Shown piece by piece: positions 991-14,236 of a stretch of DNA of 17,874 bases. A program made the position numbers and the translations under genes. Position 1 is the stretch's first letter. Each line of letters begins with the position of its first letter. The notes beneath the pieces were generated by a model. That model was not told where the DNA came from, did no database searches, and was given only the letters and a program-made list of their open reading frames with translations. Origin of the DNA: Campylobacteraceae bacterium (lineage in GTDB: Bacteria > Campylobacterota > Campylobacteria > Campylobacterales > Sulfurovaceae); the NCBI GenBank assembly GCA_026985495.1, contig JALSQJ010000032.1, positions 1 to 17,874 of the forward strand, in the 5' to 3' direction.

Positions 991-2628
991 CTATTTATAT
1001 ATTTTTTTATCTAATGAAGAGGATAGAATATACTCTCTATCTTCACTACTATTAAACCCTCTATAGAGAGTATCTCCATAAGGTTCAATTATGCTCTTAT
1101 TGTACCCAAAGAGAGATAGTATAGTTGGGAAAATCTGAATTTGAGAATAGAATTTATCTCTATCTACGGGAAATCTCTTTTTAGCATCTTTAGTAAATAC
1201 AAAAAGGGGAACACTAACCTCATTTTTAACGACTATCTCTGTATTACAATGAGTTCGTGTAAGATTTTTAGTCTCTAAAATATTTTGTCCATGGTCAGAA
1301 GTGTAAAAAACTACACTATTTTCAAAATTAACCTTTTTCACCATCTCTTTTAGATACAAATCTACAGATGAGTAGATAGAGTTTAGATAGGTGTTTACCA
1401 TCTGCTCTTTATGCTCCATATCCATGCCACCATAAGCTACCTCTACAGTTGGTTGAAAAGGGCTATATTTATGGTTATAACTTGTAAAATAAGGAAAATG
1501 TGAACCATACTTTACAACTACAATAAAATTTTTTCTACTACCACTTTTATGGGTAATTTGTGCAACTCTATCAAGTAGTGTGCTATCCTTCTTATATCTA
1601 GGTACATCAGTTCCTAATGTCTTAAAATTATCAATCGACTCTTTATCATAAAGGGTTAAGTAGTCTTGTAGATGATCTTTTTGTGTTTGTGAATCAAAAA
1701 GCCAAGTTGTATAACCTGCTCGTTTTGCATATTGGAAAATAGTAGGAAGTTTAAACATCTCCTCTTTAATATGTTGTTTTGACTTTGGAACCATTCCAAT
1801 TCGTAAAAATAGATTTGATTTTCCAGAGCAATTACTTATGGAGTTTACCACACCAAAATTTGAGATAATAGAGCTATTTTTATCTAATTTAGTAAGATAA
1901 GGGGTAGTATCTTTTGGGTATCCATTAATAGAGAGATAGGTTCCTGTAACCGATTCATCAATAATCCAAATAATATTTTTAAATCTCCCCTCATCTATAG
2001 GGGTAATATCTTTAGATAAAACTCTTCTTCTCAAAGGGGCAGATATACGGTTATTCTCTACAGCAATAAGTGGAATTTTTATCAATGAAGGGTATGAGCT
2101 AAGTTTAAATGTATCTACCCTATGGGTTACCATAGAGATAAACACTAAAGGGATAAAAAGTAATACTATTGTCCAATTTGAAAAACGTATCTTTAAAACT
2201 TTTTTACGAATAATATAGAGTATCCAAACAACTATTAGTGACAATAGTATTGATTTTCCTATATTGGTAGCATAGGCAAATAGAAATTGATAGTTAGAGG
2301 TTTCATTTAAAGCCAATCTATATTCAGAGATAGAGAACCCATGTGAAACCCCTAAAAACTGAACAAAAAAGTCTATTACTAGTGATAAAAATAGTAAAAA
2401 AAGAGCCATATAAAAGATAGGTTTCGATTTTATTGCAATAACTATTAGAAAAAAAAGAGTTGCTAAAAGATAACTAAAAAGAAAAATTGTCCCTTTTGCT
2501 AATCCTCTTAAATCAAAAAGTTCATAGTGATAGTGTAACTCCTCTATTAAAAATTGTGGGTGGGCTAAAGATTGTATTACCCCAAACAGTAGCAACAATA
2601 GCATAAAACTTAAAATAACTCTTCTCAT
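991..2628 (-). CDS. Phosphoethanolamine transferase-like membrane sulfatase-fold protein (EptA/EptC type)
   Basis: A 545-residue protein with five predicted transmembrane helices (about 5-22, 44-66, 71-95, 120-140, 152-168) and a large periplasmic alkaline-phosphatase/sulfatase domain, the layout of lipid A/glycan phosphoethanolamine transferases. Family motifs seen: DESVTGTYLSINGYPKDTTP (224-243, metal ligand E225), KYGSHFPYF (373-381), SDHGQ (444-448, metal ligands D445 and H446) and TH (459-460). Known members move phosphoethanolamine from phosphatidylethanolamine to lipid A, glycans or flagellar parts. The conserved threonine nucleophile region (CxTST in EptA) reads NCSGKSN at 266-272, so the nucleophile would have to be a serine, or the substrate differs. 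The start overlaps the upstream GT4 stop as ATGA and has a GGAGAT ribosome site. Confidence is high for the fold and moderate for the exact activity. Confidence 0.85.
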   Translation of the reverse strand: MRRVILSFMLLLLLFGVIQSLAHPQFLIEELHYHYELFDLRGLAKGTIFLFSYLLATLFFLIVIAIKSKPIFYMALFLLFLSLVIDFFVQFLGVSHGFSISEYRLALNETSNYQFLFAYATNIGKSILLSLIVVWILYIIRKKVLKIRFSNWTIVLLFIPLVFISMVTHRVDTFKLSSYPSLIKIPLIAVENNRISAPLRRRVLSKDITPIDEGRFKNIIWIIDESVTGTYLSINGYPKDTTPYLTKLDKNSSIISNFGVVNSISNCSGKSNLFLRIGMVPKSKQHIKEEMFKLPTIFQYAKRAGYTTWLFDSQTQKDHLQDYLTLYDKESIDNFKTLGTDVPRYKKDSTLLDRVAQITHKSGSRKNFIVVVKYGSHFPYFTSYNHKYSPFQPTVEVAYGGMDMEHKEQMVNTYLNSIYSSVDLYLKEMVKKVNFENSVVFYTSDHGQNILETKNLTRTHCNTEIVVKNEVSVPLFVFTKDAKKRFPVDRDKFYSQIQIFPTILSLFGYNKSIIEPYGDTLYRGFNSSEDREYILSSSLDKKIYK

Positions 2629-3719
2629 AATATCTCCATATATCTTTTTAAAATTGTTTTTTTATTATATTTTTTTATAGTTTTTAGTTTAATCTTCTCT
2701 CTATCAAAACCATAAAAGGCACTCTCTTCTATTTTTTTAGCAAACATCTCAATATTGTTAAAAGGGACAAAAAAACCATTTACCCCCTCCTCTATAATCT
2801 CTTCAATTCCACCTAAACAACTAAAAGCTACAATTGGCAAACCAAGAGTATTGGCTTCAATAAGTACATTTGGAAACCCCTCACGTTCAGAGGTTAAAAG
2901 AAATAGGTCGGCAGTAGCCATATATGAGTAAGGGTTCGATTGATAACCCTCAAAATGGATACGATGTTCAATCTTTAACTCTTTTGCTAAACGTTTTAAA
3001 CTCTCCTCCATCTCTCCTAAACCAACAATAGTTAAACTATAGTTTGAAGGTAAAAGAGCAATAGCTTGTAACATAAGGTCATGCCGTTTCTCTCTACGCA
3101 AACCTGCAACTGTTAAAAGGTTTATTTTACTCTTATCAAAACTATAATCCCCATCTTTTTTAGATAGTTGCTCTATCTTCTCGATATCTATAGGATTATT
3201 TATAACCTCTATTTTAGTTGATATGCTATAGTTTTTAACCAAATCATTTTTCATATCTTCAGATTGAGCTACAATAACATCATAGTTTGAGTAGCTTGTT
3301 TTATAGAGCCAATCAAAAAGTTTTGGATATTTAGAGGCTTGATTTTGTAGTGACACAATATTGGTCTCTCTTGCAATCCATCGACTATTTTTAAGTAGTT
3401 TTTTTATTATAAAAAGAGAGGGAGCTAGAGCAATATTTAGATGTCCTATACCTGCAAAAACAGTATTAGGCTTTAGAGTATATAGTGTTTTTAAACATCT
3501 TGGCATACCTCTCATAACTGAAGCAATACCTAAATTATGCACCACAATCTCTTGACTTAACTCCTCTCTTAATGCTCCACTATTGTTAAAGATAATTAGA
3601 TGAACATCAAACCCCTCTTTTGCAAAGTGGTTTAAGATAGTAACCATCATCTTCTCTGCTCCTCCCACCTCTAGGTGGTGAATAAGAGCAACAAATCTTC
3701 TTCTATTAGTTACATCCAT
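2625..3719 (-). CDS. Glycosyltransferase family 4
   Basis: A 364-residue GT-B fold retaining glycosyltransferase. The N-terminal acceptor lobe carries the GGAEK motif (19-23) typical of GT4 enzymes. The C-terminal nucleotide-sugar lobe shows VAGLRREKR (204-212) and the EX7E signature EREGFPNVLIEA (278-289, with E280 and E288). It resembles enzymes that add N-acetylhexosamine or hexose to undecaprenyl-linked or lipid-linked oligosaccharides (PglA/PglH/WbnK-like), but the sugar cannot be assigned. It has no membrane helix and probably acts at the cytoplasmic face of the inner membrane. It overlaps the end of the asparagine synthetase gene by 10 nt and the next gene by 4 nt (ATGA), indicating translational coupling. 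The ribosome site is weak (GAG just before the ATG), consistent with reinitiation. It is the only glycosyltransferase in the window, so the glycan locus must extend elsewhere. Confidence 0.92.
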   Translation of the reverse strand: MDVTNRRRFVALIHHLEVGGAEKMMVTILNHFAKEGFDVHLIIFNNSGALREELSQEIVVHNLGIASVMRGMPRCLKTLYTLKPNTVFAGIGHLNIALAPSLFIIKKLLKNSRWIARETNIVSLQNQASKYPKLFDWLYKTSYSNYDVIVAQSEDMKNDLVKNYSISTKIEVINNPIDIEKIEQLSKKDGDYSFDKSKINLLTVAGLRREKRHDLMLQAIALLPSNYSLTIVGLGEMEESLKRLAKELKIEHRIHFEGYQSNPYSYMATADLFLLTSEREGFPNVLIEANTLGLPIVAFSCLGGIEEIIEEGVNGFFVPFNNIEMFAKKIEESAFYGFDREKIKLKTIKKYNKKTILKRYMEIL

Positions 3720-5605
3720 CGCTCATACCACATCTCAAACATCAAAATAAACCAGAGTCTATGCACAGATACTGCTCTTCCATTAAGATACTCATCTCTC
3801 ATTCTTACCACCTCATTAGGGTTAAAAATCCCCTCTCTCTCTATACGTTCATAACTTAAATAGTCTAAAAAGTAAGATTTTAGTTCATCTCTAAACCACT
3901 CAGTAATAGGTGGAGAGAATCCCATTTTAGGACGCTCCATTATCTCTTTTGGAATATATTTGTGAGTTATCTCCTTTAAAACCCACTTCTTTTGACCATT
4001 TCGGTACTTCATCTTATTGGGTAGTTGTGAAGCAAACTCAATAATAGTTCGGTCTAAAAATGGCTCTCGCCCCTCTAACCCTACACTCATGGTTGCTCTA
4101 TCAACTTTAGTTAAGATATCATCTGCCATATATGTTTTATAGTCAATAAGCAACATCTGAGACAAACTATCTTCAATTTTTGATACATCTATATCAAAAG
4201 AGGTTATAATTTTTTGAGTAGGTTTAAGTAGCAACCTCTCTATCTCATCATTGGAGTACTGCTCATAGCTCTGCTCCAATAACTCTGCTCCATTTTTAGC
4301 TAAAAGCATCTTTTTTATCTTCTCATACCGTATGGTAAAATTATAGATATTATCAACAAAAGGGATAGAGTTTGGCTCTATCATATTTAAAATACCAACC
4401 CCACCCCTTTTAACGATATTAGGGACTTTTTTTAAAATATTATCTATCTTATAGAGGTTATCATAGGCTTGATACCCTGCAAATATCTCATCTCCACCAT
4501 CAGCACTTAGACTTACTGTAACCTCTTCTCGTGCCAATTGACTAACCAATAGAGTAGGAATTGCTGAGGCATCTCCAAAAGGTTCATCATATACCTCTGC
4601 TAGTTTAGGTATCACCTCTAAAGCATCTCTATGGGTACAGTAGTATTCGGTATGGTTCGTGCCTAAATGGTCTGCTACTCTTTGTGCATGTGGTGCTTCG
4701 TTGTACCCTTTCTCTTCAAATCCAATAGTAAAGGTATTTATCTTCTCTTTCCTATCTAGCTGGAGAAGTGCTGTTACTAACGAACTATCATATCCTCCAC
4801 TTAAAAAGCACCCTACAGGTACATCAGATACCATTCGGTAGTTAAATGCTTCTCTAAGAACTTTCTCTGTCTCTAAAACTGCTTCACTATCACTCAACTC
4901 TAACTTTGGTTTTTCATAATAGCTACGAATTGACCAATACTCTCTTTGTTGAACCTTTTGGCTCTTTAAATCTAACTCTAAAATATGCCCTGCATTTAAC
5001 TGATGAGTATCTTTAAAGATAGAGTATGGTTGAAGTACATAGCCATGTTGAAGATAAGAGACTAAAACATCTTGGTCTATCTCTTTTTTAAATAATGGGT
5101 GCTTATGAAAACTTTTAAGCTCTGAAGCAAATAGGAATAGTCCATCACGATAGTACCAATATAGAGGCTTAACCCCTGCATGGTCTCGAATAAGTGTCAA
5201 TTTCTCCTCTTTTTTGTTAAAAATTACAATAGAGAACATACCTCTAAATCTATCTATCATAGAGTCTTTCCAAGCATGAAAAGCTTTTAAGACAACCTCT
5301 GTATCGCTATTTGAATGGAACTCATACCCTAAAGTCTCTAACTCATCTCGTATCTCTTTAAAGTTATAAACCTCTCCATTATATACAATAGTTAACTCAT
5401 TAAACTCCATAGGCTGATTTCCCTCAACCGACAAATCTAAGATGGAGAGTCGTTGATGTCCCAATCCGACAACACTACCCTCTAACTCATAAAAAGTATC
5501 TCCTGAAGCATCTGAACCTCTATGAGCTAAAACCTTCATCATTGAGGATAAAATCTTTGAGCTACTACTCTTTTTAAAATCACAAAACCCTACAATACCA
5601 CACAT
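3710..5605 (-). CDS. asnB: Asparagine synthase (glutamine-hydrolysing), complete
   Basis: A 631-residue two-domain amidotransferase. The N-terminal class II glutaminase is intact: catalytic Cys2 in MCGIVGF, HRGSD (28-32), GHQRLSILDLS (49-59), YNGEVYN (75-81) and SDTEVV (100-105). The C-terminal ATP-pyrophosphatase domain has the P-loop SGGYDSS (269-275) and SADGGDEIFAGY (367-378), with the usual EPFLDR and MGFSPP segments further on. The family activates a carboxylate as acyl-AMP and attacks it with glutamine-derived ammonia. In housekeeping form this makes asparagine; in surface-glycan loci, homologues (for example WbpS-type) are thought to amidate sugar acids. Gene position inside a glycan operon, 2 nt behind a methyltransferase, favours the latter (inference). 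The gene symbol is given by family only. It is the only one of the three synthetase homologues here with a full active-site set. Confidence 0.93.
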   Translation of the reverse strand: MCGIVGFCDFKKSSSSKILSSMMKVLAHRGSDASGDTFYELEGSVVGLGHQRLSILDLSVEGNQPMEFNELTIVYNGEVYNFKEIRDELETLGYEFHSNSDTEVVLKAFHAWKDSMIDRFRGMFSIVIFNKKEEKLTLIRDHAGVKPLYWYYRDGLFLFASELKSFHKHPLFKKEIDQDVLVSYLQHGYVLQPYSIFKDTHQLNAGHILELDLKSQKVQQREYWSIRSYYEKPKLELSDSEAVLETEKVLREAFNYRMVSDVPVGCFLSGGYDSSLVTALLQLDRKEKINTFTIGFEEKGYNEAPHAQRVADHLGTNHTEYYCTHRDALEVIPKLAEVYDEPFGDASAIPTLLVSQLAREEVTVSLSADGGDEIFAGYQAYDNLYKIDNILKKVPNIVKRGGVGILNMIEPNSIPFVDNIYNFTIRYEKIKKMLLAKNGAELLEQSYEQYSNDEIERLLLKPTQKIITSFDIDVSKIEDSLSQMLLIDYKTYMADDILTKVDRATMSVGLEGREPFLDRTIIEFASQLPNKMKYRNGQKKWVLKEITHKYIPKEIMERPKMGFSPPITEWFRDELKSYFLDYLSYERIEREGIFNPNEVVRMRDEYLNGRAVSVHRLWFILMFEMWYERWM

Positions 5606-5607
5606 GG

Positions 5608-6303
5608 CTACACCTTGAAAAAATCTACCGTGGCACTGCTTGGGTAGGTAATATGGTTTAAAAAGGTAAAGTAGCTATTTAAAACATCACAAGAGGCATT
5701 ACCATATATAACATAGACATCACCCTCAAAACTCTCTTTTTGAGCCAATATATTCTCGACCACCTTTTTCATTACGACCTCATCAAAAGGGTTAAAAAAG
5801 TAGATAACTGAAATATCACTAGGGAGCATATAGGTCGTTGCATCGGCATAGATAGAGGTTACATCTTTGAGATTTAACTTCTGAATATTTCTCTGTGCTA
5901 TCTCATGCAACTCTTTAGCAAACTCCACACCAATAGCTCTCTTAAAGCCTAACTCTTTAGCATGAATAATTGCTGCTCCTTTTCCACTACCATAATCGAC
6001 AAATAGTTCTCTATTCAATTTAGCTCCTATTGTATCTTCTAAATCATTTAAGAGTTGTGATAGAAAGTCCACCGAAGTAGAGACTAGAGCTGTTCCATGC
6101 TCCTGATACTCTCCTGTTCTGGTCAAATCATAAATATTTTGAGTAGAGAAGTCAATCCCTTTTACTCTATAGCTAACTCGTTGGCTAATCTTTCTAAGGG
6201 TAGAGAGTACTCCATTCTCTTTTAATGAGTTAACAAAAAGCTCCAATTTATACGCCAAACCATTTTGGTGTGACATATCTGCATTAACGTGTGTTCTCTT
6301 CAT
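5608..6303 (-). CDS. SAM-dependent methyltransferase (class I fold)
   Basis: A 231-residue protein, the first gene of the minus-strand operon. The SAM-binding motif is FVDYGSGKG (101-109), followed by GVEFAKEL (125-132) with the acidic ribose-binding Glu, and a strand ending YFFNPF (168-173). The VDxGSGKG...GVE...NPF combination is common in a family annotated only as class I methyltransferase and often found in polysaccharide loci. Residues 1-90 lack a clear motif and may bind the acceptor. The start at 6303 is supported by an AGAAG site about 7 nt upstream and by an extended -10 box at 6333-6343, which would give a leader of roughly 20-25 nt. The next gene, asparagine synthetase, begins 2 nt after its stop. 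Substrate unknown. Confidence 0.82.
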   Translation of the reverse strand: MKRTHVNADMSHQNGLAYKLELFVNSLKENGVLSTLRKISQRVSYRVKGIDFSTQNIYDLTRTGEYQEHGTALVSTSVDFLSQLLNDLEDTIGAKLNRELFVDYGSGKGAAIIHAKELGFKRAIGVEFAKELHEIAQRNIQKLNLKDVTSIYADATTYMLPSDISVIYFFNPFDEVVMKKVVENILAQKESFEGDVYVIYGNASCDVLNSYFTFLNHITYPSSATVDFFKV

Positions 6304-6332
6304 TTTATATCTTCTTTAAAATTAATAGAGAA

Positions 6333-6343
6333 ATTATTACATA
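6333..6343 (-). promoter_or_regulatory. Extended -10 promoter of the minus-strand glycan operon
   Basis: The minus strand reads TATGTAATAAT, a TGn-type extended -10 element. Transcription would start near 6326 and leave a leader of roughly 23 nt before the methyltransferase ATG. No -35 box is evident, only AT-rich tracts, as is usual for campylobacterotal sigma70 promoters. It sits back to back with the plus-strand promoter at 6372-6388. Confidence 0.55.
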
Positions 6344-6371
6344 TTTAAGCTTTATTTTATATTACTTTGTG

Positions 6372-6388
6372 TTGTTTTATGTTACAAT
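6372..6388 (+). promoter_or_regulatory. Extended -10 promoter of the plus-strand flippase operon
   Basis: The sequence TTGTTTTATGTTACAAT carries TGT followed by the -10 hexamer TACAAT (6383-6388). It matches the element at 12716-12732 at 16 of 17 positions. Transcription would start near 6395, about 22 nt before the ATG at 6417. This is evidence that the flippase starts at 6417 and not at the upstream in-frame GTG at 6291, which would lie within the divergent gene's start and ahead of this promoter. Confidence 0.65.
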
Positions 6389-6416
6389 AAGGGCTAGAAA
6401 ATATAGTGGAGAGTCT

Positions 6417-7685
6417 ATGAGAACAGAGAAAGAGGAGTATAAAGTTTTAAGGTCAAACTTTATATCATTAACTATGCTACAAACAGCAAACTATATTTTA
6501 CCACTTATAACTTTACCTTACTTGGTAAAGACTCTGGGTGTTGAATATTTTGGTCTTTTAGCCTTTGCAACAGCTACTATCACCTATTTTGGAATATTAA
6601 CCGATTATGGATTTAACTTAACAGCTACAAAAGAGATATCGATACATAGAGAAGATAACAAGAGAGTTATAGAGATTTTCTCTGCTGTTATGAGTATTAA
6701 ATTTATACTACTTTTAATAAGCTTTGCTATACTTCTCTTACTTATATCTATAGTTGATAAATTCTCAGAACATTGGGAGATATATCTTTTAACCTTTGGT
6801 ACCGTTGTAGGTCAAGTTCTATTTCCTGTTTGGTTCTTTCAAGGTATGGAGAAGATGAAGTATATCACCTACTTAAATCTACTCTCAAAGTCCATCTTTA
6901 CCACTGCTATTTTTATCTTTGTCCAAGATAAGAGTGATTTTTTTCTTGTTCCTCTACTTCTTTCTATAGGAGCTATTGTTTCAGGGGTTATCTCGTTATA
7001 TATTATCTATAAAGAGTTCCATATCTCCTTTAAGATAGAGAGTAAAGAGACGCTAAAAGAGTATCTTTTAGATGGTTGGCATGTTTTTCTATCACGCTTC
7101 TATTTGAGTCTATATACCACTACCAATATTTTACTTCTTGGTCTAATGACCAACAATATTGCTGTAGGGTACTACTCTATTGCTGAGAAGATTGTTGTTG
7201 CTATTGGAGGTCTGTTTGACCCTATTAATCAGACCATTTACCCCTATCTTGCTCGAAAATATAGAGAGAGTTTTAATCTATTTGTAAAGTTTTTAAAAAA
7301 GGTCTCTACTCTTTTCATAGTAGTCTCTTCTACTTTTGTACTCTTTGGAGAGTTTTTTGTAGAGGAGCTAATAATACTAATTAATGGTGAGATAAACCAA
7401 CATATTGTTATGCTTTTAAGCATCTTTCTATTACGAATTTTTGTTATGCCTTTTGGAGCACTGCTCTCTAACACGCTCATTATCATGGAGAGAAAAAGAG
7501 AGTTTATAAAAGTTATGAACTATACTGTTTTATTTGATTTAATAATTGTCCCTTTTGCTATTTACCAATTTCATGAACTGGGGTTAATTGTCTCTTTTTT
7601 ACTTATTATCTCCATTCATACACTCTTCTTATGGTACTTTGTCAATCAATCTATTGCCAATAAAAGGCTAACTTATGTTGCATAG
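6417..7685 (+). CDS. Wzx-type polysaccharide flippase (oligosaccharide transporter)
   Basis: From the ATG at 6417 the protein has 422 residues, typical for MOP/PST-superfamily flippases. It moves undecaprenyl-linked oligosaccharide units across the inner membrane. The N-terminus (MRTEKEEYKVLRSNFISLT) is followed by a first helix ending in LPLITLPYLVKTLGVEYFG, the classic start of PF01943 flippases. About 12 hydrophobic helices separated by short charged loops follow, including the family-like stretch FPVWFFQGMEKMKY. The longer frame beginning at GTG 6291 adds 42 residues lying over the promoter and is rejected. A GGAGAG site precedes the ATG. It is the first gene of the plus-strand operon and overlaps the next gene by 11 nt. 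It ties the divergent operons to assembly of a lipid-linked glycan. Confidence 0.92.
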   Translation: MRTEKEEYKVLRSNFISLTMLQTANYILPLITLPYLVKTLGVEYFGLLAFATATITYFGILTDYGFNLTATKEISIHREDNKRVIEIFSAVMSIKFILLLISFAILLLLISIVDKFSEHWEIYLLTFGTVVGQVLFPVWFFQGMEKMKYITYLNLLSKSIFTTAIFIFVQDKSDFFLVPLLLSIGAIVSGVISLYIIYKEFHISFKIESKETLKEYLLDGWHVFLSRFYLSLYTTTNILLLGLMTNNIAVGYYSIAEKIVVAIGGLFDPINQTIYPYLARKYRESFNLFVKFLKKVSTLFIVVSSTFVLFGEFFVEELIILINGEINQHIVMLLSIFLLRIFVMPFGALLSNTLIIMERKREFIKVMNYTVLFDLIIVPFAIYQFHELGLIVSFLLIISIHTLFLWYFVNQSIANKRLTYVA

Positions 7686-9150
7686 ATATAGCCTAAATAA
7701 CCCAAAGATAGAGCTAAAATCTGATTTATCAGCACACAATCCACTCTATATATACCTTTGCCCAAATAGAGACTACCTTCTATATACAGACTCTATTAAT
7801 GAACTACTAGAGCATAAGGAGGTCACAAAACCTCTTGCAGTAAGAGAAGAGAGTATCTCTTTTCTATTACAGAGTGGTATTGTTCCTCTTCCTTATACCA
7901 TCTATCAAGATATCTTCAGTGTTGGTATTGGAGATATAGCAACAGTTAGAACAATCAACAGTAAAATTACAATAGATTTTAGCCATAACTTCCCATTTAA
8001 AGATAGCTATAGAGATGAGAGTATGGATATTGATGAAAATAAGATAATAGAGCTACTTGCTACAGCTACTACCTCTAAACTCAACTGCTCTAACCCAACC
8101 TACCTCTTTCATAGTGCAGGGAAAGATAGCAATATGATAGCTTTAGCTTTAGCAGAGGCTGGTGTTCAAAAAGAGATTACCTGCCTAACCCACAAGAGTA
8201 AAGGGGAGCAAGATGAGAGTGAAATCTCCAAAAATATTGCAACAAAACTTGGCTTTAAACATCAAAAGCTCTATCTCCCTAAAAAGTTACAATCAAAAGA
8301 GCTAAATAGCATAGAGAACTACTTTGAAAATGCACCTTTCCCATCTGTTGACAATGTTACCCTAGCCTATCCAATATATGCCACACAGGTCAATTTTGAT
8401 ATGAGCAATATTATAGATGGTAGTGGGAACGATGTCTATATGGGTCACATTCCTACACAAGTAGAGTTCACAAAACAGAGACTATTCTCTAAACTTCACC
8501 ACTTTAGAGTATTTACTGACTATCTTGACTCTTCAAATAAACTAAGAAACATTACACTTACTCGTGCAGAGTGGGCAGGGATAAATGGCTTCTCTTTTGG
8601 TGATGCAAAAAAGATATTTAAGCCAACTACCAACAACTATGAGTACTGGAGAGAGATGAGTAAACAGAGAGATAAGTGGAACTACCTAGAGGTTAGAGCT
8701 GATATTTGGGGTTCATTTGTTGAGTCTGATAGAGTTATACGAAAATCAAGAAACTTAGCCTCTATATACCATGCTAATCTAATCTTACCTTGGTGCAACC
8801 AAGAGGTTGCAACCTACTTCTCTAAGCTACCCTCTAAGGTACTATATAATAAAAAAGAGCTAAAAAACAAGCTTATTTTGAGAAAAATATTAAAAGATAA
8901 GATAGGACTAGATAGCGATAAATTGGGTAAAATGGCATTCTCTTTTGACTTTTTCTCTATTTTAATGATGATGAGAAGTGAAGTGGTAAGAGAGATTATT
9001 GAGTGTAAACTTTGGAATAGAGAAGAGATAGAGTATAAGGTCTTATCTTTAATAAAATACTCAAATAGATATAGTAAAAATAGAGTACTACTTCAACGAC
9101 TCTATCTTATTAGTGCATGGTACAATAAGAGTAGATATATAAAAAAATAG
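7675..9150 (+). CDS. Asparagine synthetase-like ATP-pyrophosphatase lacking the glutaminase domain
   Basis: A 491-residue protein. Its first ~100 residues align by eye with only the tail of a class II glutaminase domain (NPLYIYL.. and SGIVPLPYTIYQDI resemble KPLYWYY.. and HGYVLQPYSIFKDT of the 631-residue synthetase at 3710-5605). The catalytic Cys and all glutamine-binding segments are absent. The synthetase part keeps a PP-loop as SAGKDSN (147-153, usual SGGxDSS) and IIDGSGNDVYMG (246-257, usual DGGDExFAGY), both altered. An AMP-forming amide or ester ligation with an amine other than glutamine nitrogen is plausible, as in beta-lactam synthetase or lasso-peptide cyclase. Loss of activity is also possible. 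The ATG has AAAAGG about 8 nt upstream and overlaps the flippase stop by 11 nt, so it is translationally coupled. Substrate unknown. Confidence 0.85.
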   Translation: MLHRYSLNNPKIELKSDLSAHNPLYIYLCPNRDYLLYTDSINELLEHKEVTKPLAVREESISFLLQSGIVPLPYTIYQDIFSVGIGDIATVRTINSKITIDFSHNFPFKDSYRDESMDIDENKIIELLATATTSKLNCSNPTYLFHSAGKDSNMIALALAEAGVQKEITCLTHKSKGEQDESEISKNIATKLGFKHQKLYLPKKLQSKELNSIENYFENAPFPSVDNVTLAYPIYATQVNFDMSNIIDGSGNDVYMGHIPTQVEFTKQRLFSKLHHFRVFTDYLDSSNKLRNITLTRAEWAGINGFSFGDAKKIFKPTTNNYEYWREMSKQRDKWNYLEVRADIWGSFVESDRVIRKSRNLASIYHANLILPWCNQEVATYFSKLPSKVLYNKKELKNKLILRKILKDKIGLDSDKLGKMAFSFDFFSILMMMRSEVVREIIECKLWNREEIEYKVLSLIKYSNRYSKNRVLLQRLYLISAWYNKSRYIKK

Positions 9151-9156
9151 ATATAG

Positions 9157-9174
9157 AAAAAGGTAATTAAATTG
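9157..9174 (+). promoter_or_regulatory. Ribosome binding site and TTG start of the 576-residue synthetase
   Basis: AAAAAGG at 9157-9163 lies 8 nt before a TTG at 9172, an ideal spacing. No ATG or GTG offers a better site. The previous gene stops at 9150, so only 21 nt separate the genes and there is no room upstream for the missing glutaminase N-terminus. Confidence 0.6.
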
Positions 9175-10902
9175 AAAAAGTTTTTAGCATATATTTATAA
9201 AGAGAGACTATCTATTATAGAAAGAGCAACCACTATAAGAACTTTAGAGAGCGATATAACAGTACTCTTTAGTGGTTTTTTACTTAATAATGTAACAGAG
9301 TTATCTGAAGCAGAGTATATTGAAAAACTATACAGAGATGAAGGGATAGAGTTTTTAAATAGATTAGAGGGTAATTTTGCTCTAGCTCTATATGACAAGA
9401 AGCATAAAAAACTCTACATTGCTAAAGATAGAGTCGGCGTAACCCCACTCTACTTTAGCCACACAGAAAAGGGTTTTATATTTGGTACAAGAGTTCAAGA
9501 GTTCTCTATGGTTAACGATTTTAAGCTCACTATAAATCCTAATGCATTAGGTCACTATCTACAATATGGTTATATACTTCAACCAAATAGTATCTTTAGT
9601 AATTGCTATAAACTCAATGCTGGAGAGTATCTAACTCTTGATATAAAAAACGACGTAATAACACATCACAGCTACTGGTCTCTTGAAAATTGTTACAAAA
9701 AAAAAGAGTTCTCTACAGAGGAGCATACAATTCATAAAGCTAACGAACTACTAAATCAATCTGTTGAAAAAAATTGTTACAAAAAACCTTTTGGAGTCTC
9801 ACTTAGTGGAGGGTATGACAGCTCTACTCTTGCTGCCATTGCACAGAGACAAAGTAGTCAAAAAATTGATACCTTTACCATTGGCTTTTATGAGAATAGA
9901 ATCAATGAAGCCCCTTATGCTAAAGCGATTGCCAAACATCTTGGAACTAATCATCATGAACACTACTTTAATGCAAAAGATATATTAAACTTCATACCTA
10001 AAATAGCTAAAGTTTATGATGAACCATTTGCTGACCACGCTTCATCTCCTACCATTTTAACCTCTCAACTCCTAAAAGAGAACCATAATGAGAATTTAAT
10101 TGCAGGTGATGGGGGCGATGAGGTCTTTGCCACAGCAGAGAATGTTCAAGATTTTGAAAAACTAAAAGCTACTCCACTCTTACTAAAACAGCTCTTTGCA
10201 CAACCATTAAGTTATCTTCCTATTGGTAAAATACCCTACCTAAAGAACTACAATAACCTTCCTCTCAAATACCATAAAATAATAGAACTTCTTTTATCTA
10301 AATCTACTCCTAAAATGATTCAAAATAGAATCTCTCTTTTTTTAGAGGAGGAGATAGAAAGCTCAGTAAAAGGGTATCAAACTCCACTCTATACTACATT
10401 TGATACTCTTAACTTTGGAGGTGATACTCAAATGGTTGATGAGATTATAGGAACCTACTTCAAGACAACAATGGTCGATGGAGAGTTGGTAAAAAGTTAC
10501 TCTGCTATGAATTACAACAATATTAGACTCTCAACCCCATATTTAGATAGAGAGCTTATTGAGTATATAGCAAAAGTACCCTCCTCTATTAAGATTAAAA
10601 ATGGTATAAAAAAATATATCTTAAAAGAGATAGCCTACAGATACATTCCTAAAGAGCTTATAGAGCGTCCAAAGTGTGGTTTTGATATCCCATTTGGAGA
10701 GTGGATGAGAGATGAATTAAAAGATATTTTATATGCACAAATTAATAAAAAAAGGCTAGATAAAGATAATCTCTTTTATACTTCTTACATCTTAAATATT
10801 AGAGATAACTTCTATGCAGGTAATGATGCATATAAATATAAACTATGGAGAGTTTTCATCTTTCAACTATGGTATGAGAACTTCTGCTCCAATAAAGGAT
10901 AA
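9172..10902 (+). CDS. Asparagine synthetase homologue with truncated, Cys-less glutaminase domain
   Basis: A 576-residue protein starting at TTG. Residues 1-110 match the later half of a class II glutaminase fold (EGNFALALYD at 66-75 and KDRVGVTPLYF at 85-95 correspond to RGMFSIVIFN and RDHAGVKPLYW in the 631-residue homologue). The MCGI nucleophile start, the HRGxD, RLSI and NGE segments are missing, about 55 residues. The ATP-pyrophosphatase domain is fully conserved: SGGYDSS (212-218), AGDGGDEVFA (321-330), STPYLDRELIEY and KCGFDIPFGEW. So it should adenylate a carboxylate but cannot release ammonia from glutamine. It may use free ammonia, another amine, or ammonia from a partner such as the complete synthetase encoded at 3710-5605. 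It is the third gene of the plus-strand operon. The reaction product is unknown. Confidence 0.87.
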   Translation: MKKFLAYIYKERLSIIERATTIRTLESDITVLFSGFLLNNVTELSEAEYIEKLYRDEGIEFLNRLEGNFALALYDKKHKKLYIAKDRVGVTPLYFSHTEKGFIFGTRVQEFSMVNDFKLTINPNALGHYLQYGYILQPNSIFSNCYKLNAGEYLTLDIKNDVITHHSYWSLENCYKKKEFSTEEHTIHKANELLNQSVEKNCYKKPFGVSLSGGYDSSTLAAIAQRQSSQKIDTFTIGFYENRINEAPYAKAIAKHLGTNHHEHYFNAKDILNFIPKIAKVYDEPFADHASSPTILTSQLLKENHNENLIAGDGGDEVFATAENVQDFEKLKATPLLLKQLFAQPLSYLPIGKIPYLKNYNNLPLKYHKIIELLLSKSTPKMIQNRISLFLEEEIESSVKGYQTPLYTTFDTLNFGGDTQMVDEIIGTYFKTTMVDGELVKSYSAMNYNNIRLSTPYLDRELIEYIAKVPSSIKIKNGIKKYILKEIAYRYIPKELIERPKCGFDIPFGEWMRDELKDILYAQINKKRLDKDNLFYTSYILNIRDNFYAGNDAYKYKLWRVFIFQLWYENFCSNKG

Positions 10903-11040
10903 ATTATCGAAATCTGTATTACACCAACTAACAACAAACACTACACTGCACCTACTATATCTTACGAGGAATGGTCAAAAGAGAAGCTAAAAAAAGTTCA
11001 AGAGCTTATCAACAGACAACTAACCAAAAGAGAAGAGCCA
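10903..11040 (+). other. In-frame coding-like extension without a standard start codon
   Basis: Immediately after the TAA at 10900-10902 the same frame stays open into the next gene (11041-11733). It encodes a plausible soluble segment including TAPTISYEEWSKEKLKKVQE. The 46 codons contain no ATG, GTG or TTG. AAAGGA at 10894-10899 is a good ribosome site 3 nt before ATT (10903) and 6 nt before ATC (10906). Codon choice matches the neighbours. Options are a rare ATT/ATC start, stop-codon readthrough, a mutated ATG, or non-coding spacer. Confidence 0.45.
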
Positions 11041-11733
11041 ATGGTAATTGTACTAGAGATTGCACACTTCTCACTACCTCTAAAAAGAGAGAACCAAGAG
11101 TGGGCAAAACGAAATATGAGCTTTGCAAATGAACTTTGTGGACGCATTATTAAAGAGCATCAACACAAATTTAAAATTATTCCTACAATTCTACTCAATA
11201 ATCTCGATGAAGATTCACTCCATAGAGCTGAAGAGTTTATTGATGAGATGGTGGAGAATCAGAAATATATACGAAGCGAATCGATTCGTCTTGTATCTGA
11301 ACGTAACCTAAAAAATAGAGCATTTAAGTCTCTTAAAAAAAATAAAAAACTTGCCAATAGTTTTATTAATATTGAAGGAAAAGCCTACCTAAAAGATGAT
11401 GAGTATCAACATGACCTTGCTGCTGGGTTTGTAGATGATAATGGGAAGATTATCCCTAGATGTGGACTAATCTTAACCTCTTTTTTAGATATGGTAGCTA
11501 AATTTTCTAATGATAGATTACACCAAAAATCCGATGCAAATGTACTTTTTATCTCATTTTCAGAACAGTTTCATGAGTATCAAAGAGTTAGATTGGGGGT
11601 TGATATATATACAAAAACCCATAAAAAAGCAACCATTCACCCTATTATTATCCATTGGTCGTATGAGATTGACCAAGCATTAACCTCTTTTAGAGAGTGC
11701 AACACTCAAGCATGGAATGAAGTTGAACTATAA
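11041..11733 (+). CDS. Hypothetical protein in the glycan/amide operon (start uncertain)
   Basis: A 230-residue protein from the first ATG. I do not recognise its family. It has no signal peptide or convincing membrane helix. Strand-like hydrophobic segments (MVIVLEIAHFSLPL, ANVLFISFSEQF, ATIHPIIIHWSYEI) alternate with charged, Lys/Glu-rich helical stretches, suggesting a soluble alpha/beta enzyme or scaffold. The ATG at 11041 has only a weak site (AAGAG, 4 nt away), and coding-like sequence continues upstream to 10903, giving up to 276 residues. The gene overlaps the acyltransferase downstream by 17 nt and follows the synthetase, so it is probably co-expressed with both. It might supply or bind the amine or acyl partner of the synthetases, but that is speculation. 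Confidence 0.65.
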   Translation: MVIVLEIAHFSLPLKRENQEWAKRNMSFANELCGRIIKEHQHKFKIIPTILLNNLDEDSLHRAEEFIDEMVENQKYIRSESIRLVSERNLKNRAFKSLKKNKKLANSFINIEGKAYLKDDEYQHDLAAGFVDDNGKIIPRCGLILTSFLDMVAKFSNDRLHQKSDANVLFISFSEQFHEYQRVRLGVDIYTKTHKKATIHPIIIHWSYEIDQALTSFRECNTQAWNEVEL

Positions 11734-12685
11734 TAGATTAAGCATTAATGAGACAAATCGGCTAAAAGGTCTTCTGATAATACTGATTGTATTTGGGCAT
11801 ATCTCCCAACTACTTCAACAGTATGGCTCTCTCCATGCTACCCTATACTCATTTCATGTGGTTGCATTTTTCTTTTTACCATTTCTTTTTAATAAAGATA
11901 TTTTAACTATAAAAAGTATTAAAAAAAATCTCAAACGTATCTACATACCATATAGTATCTTTTTTATTATCTCTTTGGTAGCATTCTCTATTATGCAATA
12001 CCACTTTGACCCTATCTCTGCTTTAAAAAGTTGGGCAATCGGTAGTAGTCACTACCTAAAAATAGATACAGGATTACGAATTTTTTGGTTTTTCCCTGCA
12101 CTCTTTTCAACTATTTTACTAATAATGCTATATAACTTTTTATCTAAAAAATTACAAAAAATATATCTAATCTTAATGCTAATTGCCCATATATCAATCC
12201 CTTTTATCCCTAAAAGTACACTATTTTTATTCCCCATAAGCTCATATATTGCACTCTATCTATTTACAATAGGTATGGTAGTAAAATATATTTATGAACA
12301 TTTAGATTATGCCAAATACTCTTTACAAATCTCTATACTATTTATCTTATCGTTACTACTATCTTATGGTTCTGACTTTTCATTAGCGTCAGCTATTTTT
12401 CCAGATAATATTTTTAACTTCTTGCTACAAGATGCTGTGATGATTTTAAGTTTTTTTACACTTGTTTTATGGAGTAAATCTATCCATTTTTTTGAAAGTT
12501 TTGGTAGATACTCTATTGCTATCTTTACCATTCACCCTTTTATTATACAAGTAATAGATAAACTTTATAGATGGGAGGGTTTAACAGATGGTCTTATGAA
12601 ATTTTTACTAGTTATAACCCTTACCTATTTAATTACAAGATTAATATACTATTTTAAAATTAATAAAATTTTATATCCTAGATAA
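11717..12685 (+). CDS. Acyltransferase family 3 membrane protein
   Basis: A 322-residue, highly hydrophobic protein with about ten predicted helices. The N-terminal signature RLKGLLIILIVFGHI (15-29) contains the conserved Arg and the GH histidine (H28) of acyltransferase family 3 (OafA/NodX/WecH-type). YSFHVVAFFFLPF (44-56) matches the usual FHMPLFFFxSG segment. Members O-acetylate or succinylate sugars of O-antigen, exopolysaccharide or peptidoglycan in the inner membrane. The length is slightly short for the family (about 340-370) and there is no extra C-terminal SGNH domain. The start overlaps the upstream gene by 17 nt. It is the last gene of the plus-strand operon; no clear terminator follows before the next promoter. 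Acyl donor and sugar are unknown. Confidence 0.88.
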   Translation: MKLNYNRLSINETNRLKGLLIILIVFGHISQLLQQYGSLHATLYSFHVVAFFFLPFLFNKDILTIKSIKKNLKRIYIPYSIFFIISLVAFSIMQYHFDPISALKSWAIGSSHYLKIDTGLRIFWFFPALFSTILLIMLYNFLSKKLQKIYLILMLIAHISIPFIPKSTLFLFPISSYIALYLFTIGMVVKYIYEHLDYAKYSLQISILFILSLLLSYGSDFSLASAIFPDNIFNFLLQDAVMILSFFTLVLWSKSIHFFESFGRYSIAIFTIHPFIIQVIDKLYRWEGLTDGLMKFLLVITLTYLITRLIYYFKINKILYPR

Positions 12686-12715: not shown

Positions 12716-12732
12716 TTGTTTTATGTTATAAT
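12716..12732 (+). promoter_or_regulatory. Extended -10 promoter of the secreted repeat protein gene
   Basis: TTGTTTTATGTTATAAT contains a perfect TGnTATAAT element (-10 hexamer at 12727-12732) behind T-rich tracts. Transcription would start near 12739, about 30 nt before the ATG at 12770. The element makes the in-frame TTG at 12716 an unlikely start. Confidence 0.7.
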
Positions 12733-12769
12733 CTATTTTGAAAAGAAATATATTATGAGGATTTACAAA

Positions 12770-14236
12770 ATGATAAAAAAAATAGTGATTGTTCTATTCT
12801 CCTTAGCTACTCTATTAATGGGAGCTAATGTTAATCTAACTAAAGAGACTTTTAAAACCAATGAAGATATTGTGGTCAATTTTTCAAATATGGAAGCTAA
12901 AAATCAAGATTGGATTGGAATTTATCCTGTAAATAGTGAAAACAATTGGGCAAATGTTGTACGTTGGAGCTGGACAGGTGACGTAGATAACGGTAGCGTT
13001 ACACTAAATAAAATAACTGTTGCTGGAACCTATGAGGTAAGAGCTTTTTACAATAACTCTTATCATGTTGAAGCATTTAAACAATTTACAGTTCAAGAGG
13101 TACCTTCTAACACTGAAGTAAATACTACTAAAGCAGTATATCAACCTAATGAGACAATTCAAGTAAACTTTAGAGATATGGTTGCTAAAAACCAAGATTG
13201 GATTGGTATATACCCTGCTGGAAGTAGTAACGATTGGGGAAATGTAGTAGCATGGAACTGGACAGGAGATGTTACCAATGGCTCTTTAGATTTCAACGCT
13301 CTACCTGTAGGTAACTATGAAGTTAGAGCCTTCTATAACAACTCAGTTCATCTTGAATCTAGTTTTGCTTTTAGTGTTAAAAGTACTCTTTTCAAACTAG
13401 AGAGCCAAAAAGATACTTATGATAACTATGAGATAATTCATGCAAACTTCCAAAATATGAGAGGAAACCAAAGTGATTGGATTGGAGTATTCCCTATTGG
13501 TGCAGATGATGAGAAAGAGAGTGCTTTAGAGTGGAAATATGTAAATGGTTTAGTAAATGGTTCTCTATCTTTTCTTGGACTCCCTGCTGGAACATATGAG
13601 TTAAGAGCCTACTTTGCAACACTACACAAAGCAACTGTTCAATTTACAGTTCAAGATAGACCTGCTATAACCACCATATATGAAGATGCAGAAGATGGAA
13701 TTGACCCAAATTGGGTTCACTATGCAGGAATATATCCTATTCAACTATTGACTAATGCAGGAGTAAATAGTCAAAAATCTATTCGACTAAGAGGATATTG
13801 GTCAAATGGATATAACCCATCTGGATACTATCTACCATTTGCAAACTCTACTATAGAGCAGAAGTTTTTTGAACTAGATACACGAATTGGTGTATCATCT
13901 CACATTGGTAACTTTGGAGTTACAATTAGCACTAAAAATGGTTCACGTAGAATTATTTGGGCTTCATGGATGAATCACTCCGATGGACATGGAGGAAATG
14001 ATATGAGTGGGAATGCTGTTCCAAGAGAGCCATTTACACAAGATGATGGTTACCTACTAATGTTCCCTGGACCTACAGACTACTATTTAGATACAAGAAA
14101 TGGTAACTTTATACACTATAAAATCAATATAGAAAAGACCCTTAGAGTTCTTGAACCAGATAATGAGCTATTAAGAGTAACAGGCTTTACTAGTGCAGGT
14201 GGAGATTTTGACAATCTCTCTTTAACTTCTAAATAA
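12770..14236 (+). CDS. Secreted protein with three tandem Ig-like DWIGIYP repeats and a C-terminal beta domain
   Basis: From the ATG at 12770 (TGAGGAT site, 8 nt spacing) the protein has 488 residues. It starts with a Sec signal peptide (MIKKIVIVLFSLATLLMGA, no lipobox Cys). Three repeats of about 90 residues follow (about 20-109, 115-204, 206-295). Each has a DWIGIYP/DWIGVFP core (47, 143, 236), a W-rich strand, an NGS turn and a closing GTYEVRAF-like strand. This resembles Ig-like/SKICH-type beta sandwiches often found in secreted phosphoesterases and adhesins. Residues ~302-485 form a separate domain rich in Trp, Tyr and Gly and ending GGDFDNLSL, jelly-roll or lectin-like in style. No enzyme motif, sortase signal or membrane anchor is seen, so it is periplasmic or extracellular. 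It has its own promoter and terminator. Role unknown; carbohydrate or surface binding is a guess. Confidence 0.85.
   Translation: MIKKIVIVLFSLATLLMGANVNLTKETFKTNEDIVVNFSNMEAKNQDWIGIYPVNSENNWANVVRWSWTGDVDNGSVTLNKITVAGTYEVRAFYNNSYHVEAFKQFTVQEVPSNTEVNTTKAVYQPNETIQVNFRDMVAKNQDWIGIYPAGSSNDWGNVVAWNWTGDVTNGSLDFNALPVGNYEVRAFYNNSVHLESSFAFSVKSTLFKLESQKDTYDNYEIIHANFQNMRGNQSDWIGVFPIGADDEKESALEWKYVNGLVNGSLSFLGLPAGTYELRAYFATLHKATVQFTVQDRPAITTIYEDAEDGIDPNWVHYAGIYPIQLLTNAGVNSQKSIRLRGYWSNGYNPSGYYLPFANSTIEQKFFELDTRIGVSSHIGNFGVTISTKNGSRRIIWASWMNHSDGHGGNDMSGNAVPREPFTQDDGYLLMFPGPTDYYLDTRNGNFIHYKINIEKTLRVLEPDNELLRVTGFTSAGGDFDNLSLTSK

Follow-up and report, generated by a model that had tools for sequence, protein, structure and literature searches.

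What does an asparagine synthetase make once it has lost its own ammonia supply? This question is raised by a locus from a Campylobacteraceae bacterium, whose metagenome-assembled genome consists of 262 contigs and totals 1.59 Mb. The window analyzed here is the whole of contig C32 (17,874 bases). It codes for three proteins of the asparagine synthetase superfamily (ASN631, ASN576 and ASN491), all of which pass the Pfam cut-off for Asn_synthase. The first-pass annotation had placed three such genes in one glycan locus, and the open reading frames (ORFs), all intact, are found where it put them. It interpreted them as a graded loss of the glutaminase domain, with one ammonia donor serving two ligases. 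Part of this interpretation stands: the short forms are real and under selection, the ASN576 clade has the residue pattern of a ligase, and the context is that of a glycan locus. The donor with two ligases was not supported, and the gene next to ASN576, here called U230, had been missed. We consider it on balance probable that ASN576 and U230 represent an ATP-dependent amide ligase with its partner, acting on a surface-glycan precursor. To our knowledge, bacterial attachment of amino acids or other amines to surface sugars has been explained in no more than a handful of cases.

Loss of the glutaminase and retention of the ATP site in ASN576

Residues of human asparagine synthetase were taken from PMC6748925 and PMC11615228, complemented with some further positions, and were aligned via ASN631. 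The comparison covers 26 rows of the ASN576 clade, 15 ASN631-type rows, three ASN590 rows (see below) and two ASN491 rows. Proteins cut short were omitted (ASN576 in L063, L085 and L148; ASN631 in L149), while another AsnB of the same genome, on contig C17, was included in the ASN631 set. A 596-residue protein (G056) is ASN631-like by its BLAST score; it was assigned to the ASN576 clade by its ASN576 signature and its U230 neighbor.

ASN631 has a complete glutaminase half, in agreement with the intact Cys2 that had been reported for it. All 15 rows of its type retain Cys2, Asn76, Glu78, Asp502, Glu511 and Arg513 (Cys1, Asn74, Glu76, Asp405, Glu414 and Arg416 in human numbering, which is used from here on) and the ATP-binding PP-loop SGGxDS. 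The position of Arg142 is occupied by Lys in 15/15 and that of Arg403 in 14/15.

The GATase_7 match of ASN576 is restricted to the second half of the model, and Cys2 is absent. In the clade, Cys1 is found in 0/26 rows, and an M-C, L-C or V-C pair within the first 60 residues in 0/26. Other glutaminase and tunnel residues have eroded (Asn74 6/26, Glu76 3/26, Asp405 0/26, Glu414 0/26, Arg416 6/26). The Ser, both Gly, the Asp and the second Ser of the PP-loop (SGGxDS) are invariant, as are Asp367, Glu368, a Lys at the position of Arg403 and a C-terminal Lys (each 26/26). Structure prediction gives the N-terminal domain a compacted Ntn fold. Judged from the aligned residues, the pattern is that of a protein which has lost the nucleophile and most channel residues and has kept the adenylating site. 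The earlier observation of a nucleophile-free protein with a preserved ATP site extends to the clade. This combination is the one expected of a ligase that takes its nitrogen from another source.

ASN576 occurs in 15 of 34 genomes of the genus, including its own (E below 1e-160), and in 12 genomes of a second family, f6 (order sample, n=298). In the tree, 46 rows split off at 100/100. All of these are full-length AsnB types, with one truncated at the end of its contig, and two further rows of 591 and 623 residues group among the short forms. A single loss of the glutaminase was considered and is not settled by this tree, in which the ASN576 clade has one origin in only 60% of the bootstrap trees. 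A third short clade, ASN590 (587-593 residues; L065, L066 and L067), is also without the Cys nucleophile and has the same residue losses as ASN576 (3/3). Its genes are located after ASN631 and a glycosyltransferase in G233, G107 and G185, all of f6.

ASN491 begins near the end of the GATase_7 domain, so that only the tail of the glutaminase is left, as had been described. The nucleophile region is absent (Cys 0/2). The PP-loop reads SAGKDS in 2/2 rows (SxGxDS), and Asp367 is kept. Ser at the position of Glu364, together with a gap or Val at that of Glu368, suggests that the acyl substrate is probably not aspartate-like. The only orthologue in the 34 genomes of the genus is that of G526, and none was found in 22 f6 genomes (E 1e-14). 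Across 248 genomes sampled from the order, its own among them, ASN491 has matches in 13 others (E 1e-10). They cover part of longer proteins (open frames of 591-644 residues) at 24-29% identity, and we read these proteins as generic AsnB. Outside the phylum, plasmid records gave one weak AsnB match and genome contigs were covered by one pattern scan. Candidate relatives in two clostridial loci (L019 and L020) proved to be ordinary full-length AsnB.

Incomplete genes would be a trivial explanation for the short forms, and the genome itself invites the suspicion, being 79.75% complete and 5.79% contaminated in addition to its 262 contigs. The stop-to-stop frames of ASN576 and ASN491 comprise 581 and 492 codons, so that there is no in-frame upstream sequence able to restore the missing parts. 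For ASN576, pseudogenes, assembly errors and frameshifts are refuted: the same short architecture is intact in more than 20 other assemblies, without internal stops, and is under purifying selection relative to G526. The latter genome, from the same genus, has the same short forms in the same gene order (acyltransferase, U230, ASN576, ASN491 and flippase; on the other strand MT231, ASN631 and GT364). Identities between window and G526 are 63.3% for ASN491, 61.6% for ASN576 and 73.1% for ASN631, and internal stops are absent from all three. The ratios of nonsynonymous to synonymous differences (pN/pS) are 0.35, 0.33 and 0.24, respectively, with synonymous sites nearly saturated. We take both short forms to be functional genes on these comparisons, the case of ASN491 resting on its one intact orthologue. 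The probability of pseudogenes or assembly errors is close to negligible.

U230, the constant neighbor of ASN576

The first-pass annotation suggested looking for the trio of asparagine-synthetase-like genes in other genome neighborhoods. G526 is the only other genome in which it turned up. ASN491 is rare and ASN576 is not, so the trio is not the conserved unit, which consists of ASN576 with U230. Among 29 loci fetched from relatives, 26 contain both genes, always on the same strand and with U230 downstream. The two are adjacent in 23 of these (24 of 27 when the window is counted) and 3.9-4.9 kb apart in three. One locus has U230 alone, at a contig end (G224), and two have ASN576 alone (see below). 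The 34 genomes of the genus divide into 13 with both genes, two with only ASN576, none with only U230 and 19 with neither. U230 is present in 14 of 22 f6 genomes; a sample of 397 genomes from the phylum contains it twice (own genome and G026). Outside the phylum it was sought in plasmid records, with the G026 protein as query, and zero matches were obtained. U230 is better conserved than ASN576 between window and G526 (81.8% vs 61.6% identity), and its residues Glu51, His54, Trp66 and Asn70 are invariant. Its predicted structure, examined by a model and a fold search, is a Rossmann-like catalytic fold resembling that of class I aminoacyl-tRNA synthetases. A cyclodipeptide-synthase-like function was considered; no such structure is among the fold-search matches listed. 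A literature search did not find a description of the pair, from which we do not claim its absence from print.

The start codon of U230 is unusual. The window and 12 other loci of the genus (L119, L137-L142 and L144-L148) were compared. A Shine-Dalgarno-like AAAGGA is present in 13/13, and the ASN576 stop lies just upstream of the U230 start in 12/13, in the layout AAAGGA, TAA (TAG once) and three nucleotides. The start position is ATC in ten loci, ATA in two and ATG in one (G522, one codon later). In 12 of 13 loci, the U230 frame is devoid of ATG, GTG and TTG for 32-71 codons past the preceding stop, and this early stretch is nevertheless conserved as protein. Its pN/pS is 0.41 for codons 2-45 and 0.17 for the remainder (12 loci, L146 being cut), by which codons 2-45 are under selection. 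In the structure model, a helix from this stretch packs into the fold. Across 15 stretches from this genus, only 13.9% of isoleucine codons are ATC. Its use here is therefore more than codon bias, with the reservation that the loci are related. The f6 proteins mostly have Met at or near this place. Stop-codon read-through from ASN576 was considered and is permitted by the frame in 12 of 13 loci. In G505, however, ASN576 ends in another frame than U230, which favors initiation, with the limit that this is one assembly. From these alignments, translation of U230 in this genus seems to be initiated at an AUC or AUA codon that is conserved. If confirmed, this would be an unusual start-codon choice kept across a genus.

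Glycan context, known systems and competing explanations

Neighbor labels are those of the best BLAST hit (E 1e-10 or better), and many stretches are cut by contig ends. Wzz (chain-length), MBOAT and SGNH neighbors were labeled by appearance only. The 28 ASN576 loci from relatives contain a Wzx-type flippase in 16 cases, the methyltransferases MT231 and MT429 in 13 and 15, and an ASN631-type gene in nine, four of these from a more distant branch. A polysaccharide deacetylase is present in six and adjoins U230 in five. Pfam analysis of sampled loci identified a deacetylase in L060, MT429 in L053 and an EpsG-type polymerase in L139. The assignment as a glycan locus is real, given the flippase and glycosyltransferase in the window and the deacetylase and polymerase in relatives. 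In the window genome, the MT429 homolog is on contig C26, on the same stretch as a second flippase. An asparagine synthase near a deacetylase is also described for an exopolysaccharide cluster of Thauera (PMC4784049).

The known family members provide only partial parallels. ASN631 is of the full-length AsnB/WbpS type, with 474.9 bits to TIGR01536 (cut-off 267.1), although proteins of its type carry the Lys substitutions noted above. ASN576 (248.3 bits) stays under that cut-off and, like ASN491, differs from this type by lacking the nucleophile. Both ASN631 (550.7) and ASN576 (278.8) score below the cut-off of the XrtA/PEP-CTERM amidotransferase model TIGR03108 (816.9). The hydroxyamidotransferase TsnB9 (PDB 7ylz) matches ASN576 with 79.4 bits, against 206 for ASN631, and keeps its Cys, which ASN576 does not. 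Beta-lactam and carbapenam synthetases have a catalytic Tyr, in a Tyr-Glu dyad, and lasso peptide cyclases are glutaminase-dead AsnB relatives that form amides. ASN576 shares with the former two an AsnB fold with a dead glutaminase domain, but similarity is low (39.7 and 29.0 bits) and the gene context is another. At the aligned position of Glu364, the presumed place of their Tyr, ASN576 has Asp (26/26). To the lasso cyclase model NF033535, ASN576 scores 123.3 bits, far under the cut-off of 525. Among ORFs of at least 100 residues in the window, neither a lasso-type precursor peptide nor a protease was noted; short peptides were not searched.

A parallel in the literature is the Wbp/Vim linking-sugar pathway of Porphyromonas and Tannerella, where AsnB-like WbpS, a putative deacetylase and amino-acid transfer act on one sugar. 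In P. gingivalis, WbpS converts a uronic acid to the uronamide, the putative deacetylase VimE strips an acetyl group and the amine so freed receives an amino acid (PMC7468200). The latter step is assigned there to VimA, an N-acetyltransferase/FemAB-like protein. The only trace of such a protein among 30 proteins scanned is a weak Acetyltransf_6 match (E 0.015), to an arginyl-tRNA-protein transferase in L051.

ASN576 is an AsnB-derived ligase of a known sort, with an uncharacterised partner family. The explanation that we favor holds that it evolved from a glutamine-dependent AsnB into a working ATP-dependent amide ligase. It would activate a carboxylate as acyl-AMP at the conserved N-type ATP-pyrophosphatase site. 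The acyl group would then pass to an amine from a source other than its own dead glutaminase. An amino acid or amino sugar is the probable acceptor, free ammonia a less likely one. U230 would be a dedicated partner, with a class I synthetase-like pocket that probably serves to bind or present one of these two substrates, and the pair would act on a precursor of a Wzx-dependent surface glycan. ASN631 would act separately on the same glycan and form a primary amide there, for instance a uronamide, and ASN491 may be a rare, optional further ligase. It is tempting to go further and to see a new two-protein amide-forming system, in which the tunnel-less ligase takes an amine (e.g. an amino acid) from its synthetase-like partner. 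Such a system would furnish a lipid-linked sugar with secondary amides, aminoacyl or other, and the translation of U230 would be tied to it via the conserved AUC start. We regard this stronger version as possible but doubtful.

Several observations weigh against the favored explanation. In G499, a short contig has another gene after ASN576, and no U230 was found there or anywhere in this genome (94% complete). G500 gave no U230 either, its contig ending inside ASN576. The deacetylase is missing from the window and from 22 of the 28 fetched stretches, many of them cut. The likeness of U230 to class I synthetases is by predicted fold alone, with a low best Foldseek TM-score (0.41), no convincing Pfam match and no PDB sequence match. 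Comparison by hhalign to two arginyl-tRNA synthetase (ArgRS) profiles gave probabilities of 0.2% and 4.1%. The AlphaFold model of an ASN576-U230 read-through product (predicted TM-score, pTM, 0.69) has no confident contact between the two. In ASN576, glutaminase traces persist (Gly75 26/26; equivalent of Asp97 8/26), and Asp400 is replaced by Gly, Ala or Lys in 26/26. The Asp at Glu364 is likewise found in 14 of 15 ASN631-type rows, and Glu364 is essential in the human enzyme (PMC6748925).

The main rival is that ASN576 still makes a primary amide, from free or protein-supplied ammonia, with its dead N-domain as a scaffold. Synthetases that depend on NH3 do make amides from free ammonia, and the loss of tunnel residues is compatible with such use. 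The intact ATP site, the amino-group pocket of Asp367 and Glu368, and the retained Ntn-like predicted fold with its Gly75 all fit this rival. The loss of Asp405 and Glu414 in all 26 rows argues against channelled ammonia, since a channel would need to be new, and ASN631, with its type in just 9 of 28 stretches, is not shown as an obligate donor. We consider this rival unlikely. A quite improbable alternative has ASN576 as a dead or regulatory scaffold and assigns the catalysis to U230, which could be an adenylating aminoacyl ligase like MshC. The better conservation of U230 and its synthetase-like predicted fold speak for it. HIGH and KMSKS are the ATP-binding motifs of class I aminoacyl-tRNA synthetases, and U230 lacks both (HxGH 0/25, KMSKS 0/25) as well as a detectable sequence relation to ArgRS, so that it resembles these enzymes and MshC in predicted fold only. 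A dead ASN576 would also not be expected to have PP-loop residues that are invariant in 26 rows. MshC attaches cysteine to an amino sugar by an amide bond (PMC6594144).

Far less probable still is the cooperation of all three proteins as one ammonia donor and two ligases, as originally proposed. All three do occur together, in the same gene order, in the window and in G526. Within the genus, ASN491 was found in these two genomes alone, the remaining order and family samples yielded none, an ASN631-type gene accompanies only the minority of ASN576 loci given above, and the tunnel residues are lost. Moreover, glutaminases of the AsnB family normally feed their own synthetase domain. In the ASN576 clade, nature has provided an asparagine synthetase stripped of its ammonia supply, yet with a strictly conserved ATP site. 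Its constant partner with a recognizable predicted fold turns the identity of the amide into a testable question.

Features of the window and additional observations

Table 1. Positions and assignments of the features in the window.
Feature	Position	Strand	Assignment	Evidence or remark
GT364	2625..3719	-	family-4 glycosyltransferase, after ASN631	Glycos_transf_1 124.9 bits; near ASN631-type genes in relatives
ASN631	3710..5605	-	full-length glutamine-dependent amidotransferase, AsnB/WbpS type	Pfam and NCBIfam
MT231	5608..6303	-	S-adenosylmethionine (SAM) methyltransferase	Methyltransf_25 32.5 bits
WZX464	6291..7685 (likely start 6420)	+	Wzx-type flippase	Polysacc_synt 213.7 bits
ASN491	7675..9150	+	short divergent Asn_synthase-family protein with HSAGKDSN and GSGNDVY	Pfam 32.2 bits
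ASN576	9172..10902 (TTG start)	+	asparagine-synthetase-like ligase without glutaminase nucleophile	Asn_synthase 244.4 bits; GATase_7 partial
AAAGGA TAA ATT ATC	10894..10908	+	Shine-Dalgarno-like AAAGGA, ASN576 stop, 3-nt gap, putative AUC start	
U230	10906..11733 (putative ATC start at 10906; first-ATG ORF 11041-11733)	+	partner protein	conserved N-terminus, gene pair, predicted fold
ACYL322	11717..12685	+	membrane acyltransferase	Acyl_transf_3 75.9 bits; same neighbor in G526

The window also codes for a protein with three SKICH-domain-like matches (12716-14236; Pfam, E 5e-11). Its homologs occur in many related loci, at times two or three per locus.

Elsewhere in the genome, contig C17 codes for the further full-length AsnB mentioned above (L064:8353-11207; 619 residues), which adjoins a polysaccharide deacetylase followed by a WecG-type glycosyltransferase. 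On contig C26, an ORF between the flippase and the MT429 homolog (L091:3066-4775) extends into a hydrophobic C-terminal stretch. We take it to be ProA-like (glutamate-5-semialdehyde dehydrogenase), a label given by reading and not by a family scan.

In locus L059 of G130, U230 and ASN576 are separated by a TupA-type ATP-grasp protein (213 bits). L058, likewise a G130 locus with ASN576 and U230, codes for a protein that resembles it by its start. The TupA-like ATP-grasp protein is possibly another amide-forming enzyme.

The ArgRS of the genus matches PF00750 at 1e-80 to 1e-128 (loci L092-L111), while those from eight other families of the order (one genome each) match at 1e-17 to 1e-25. This suggests that the genus has an ArgRS of a different type, perhaps acquired.

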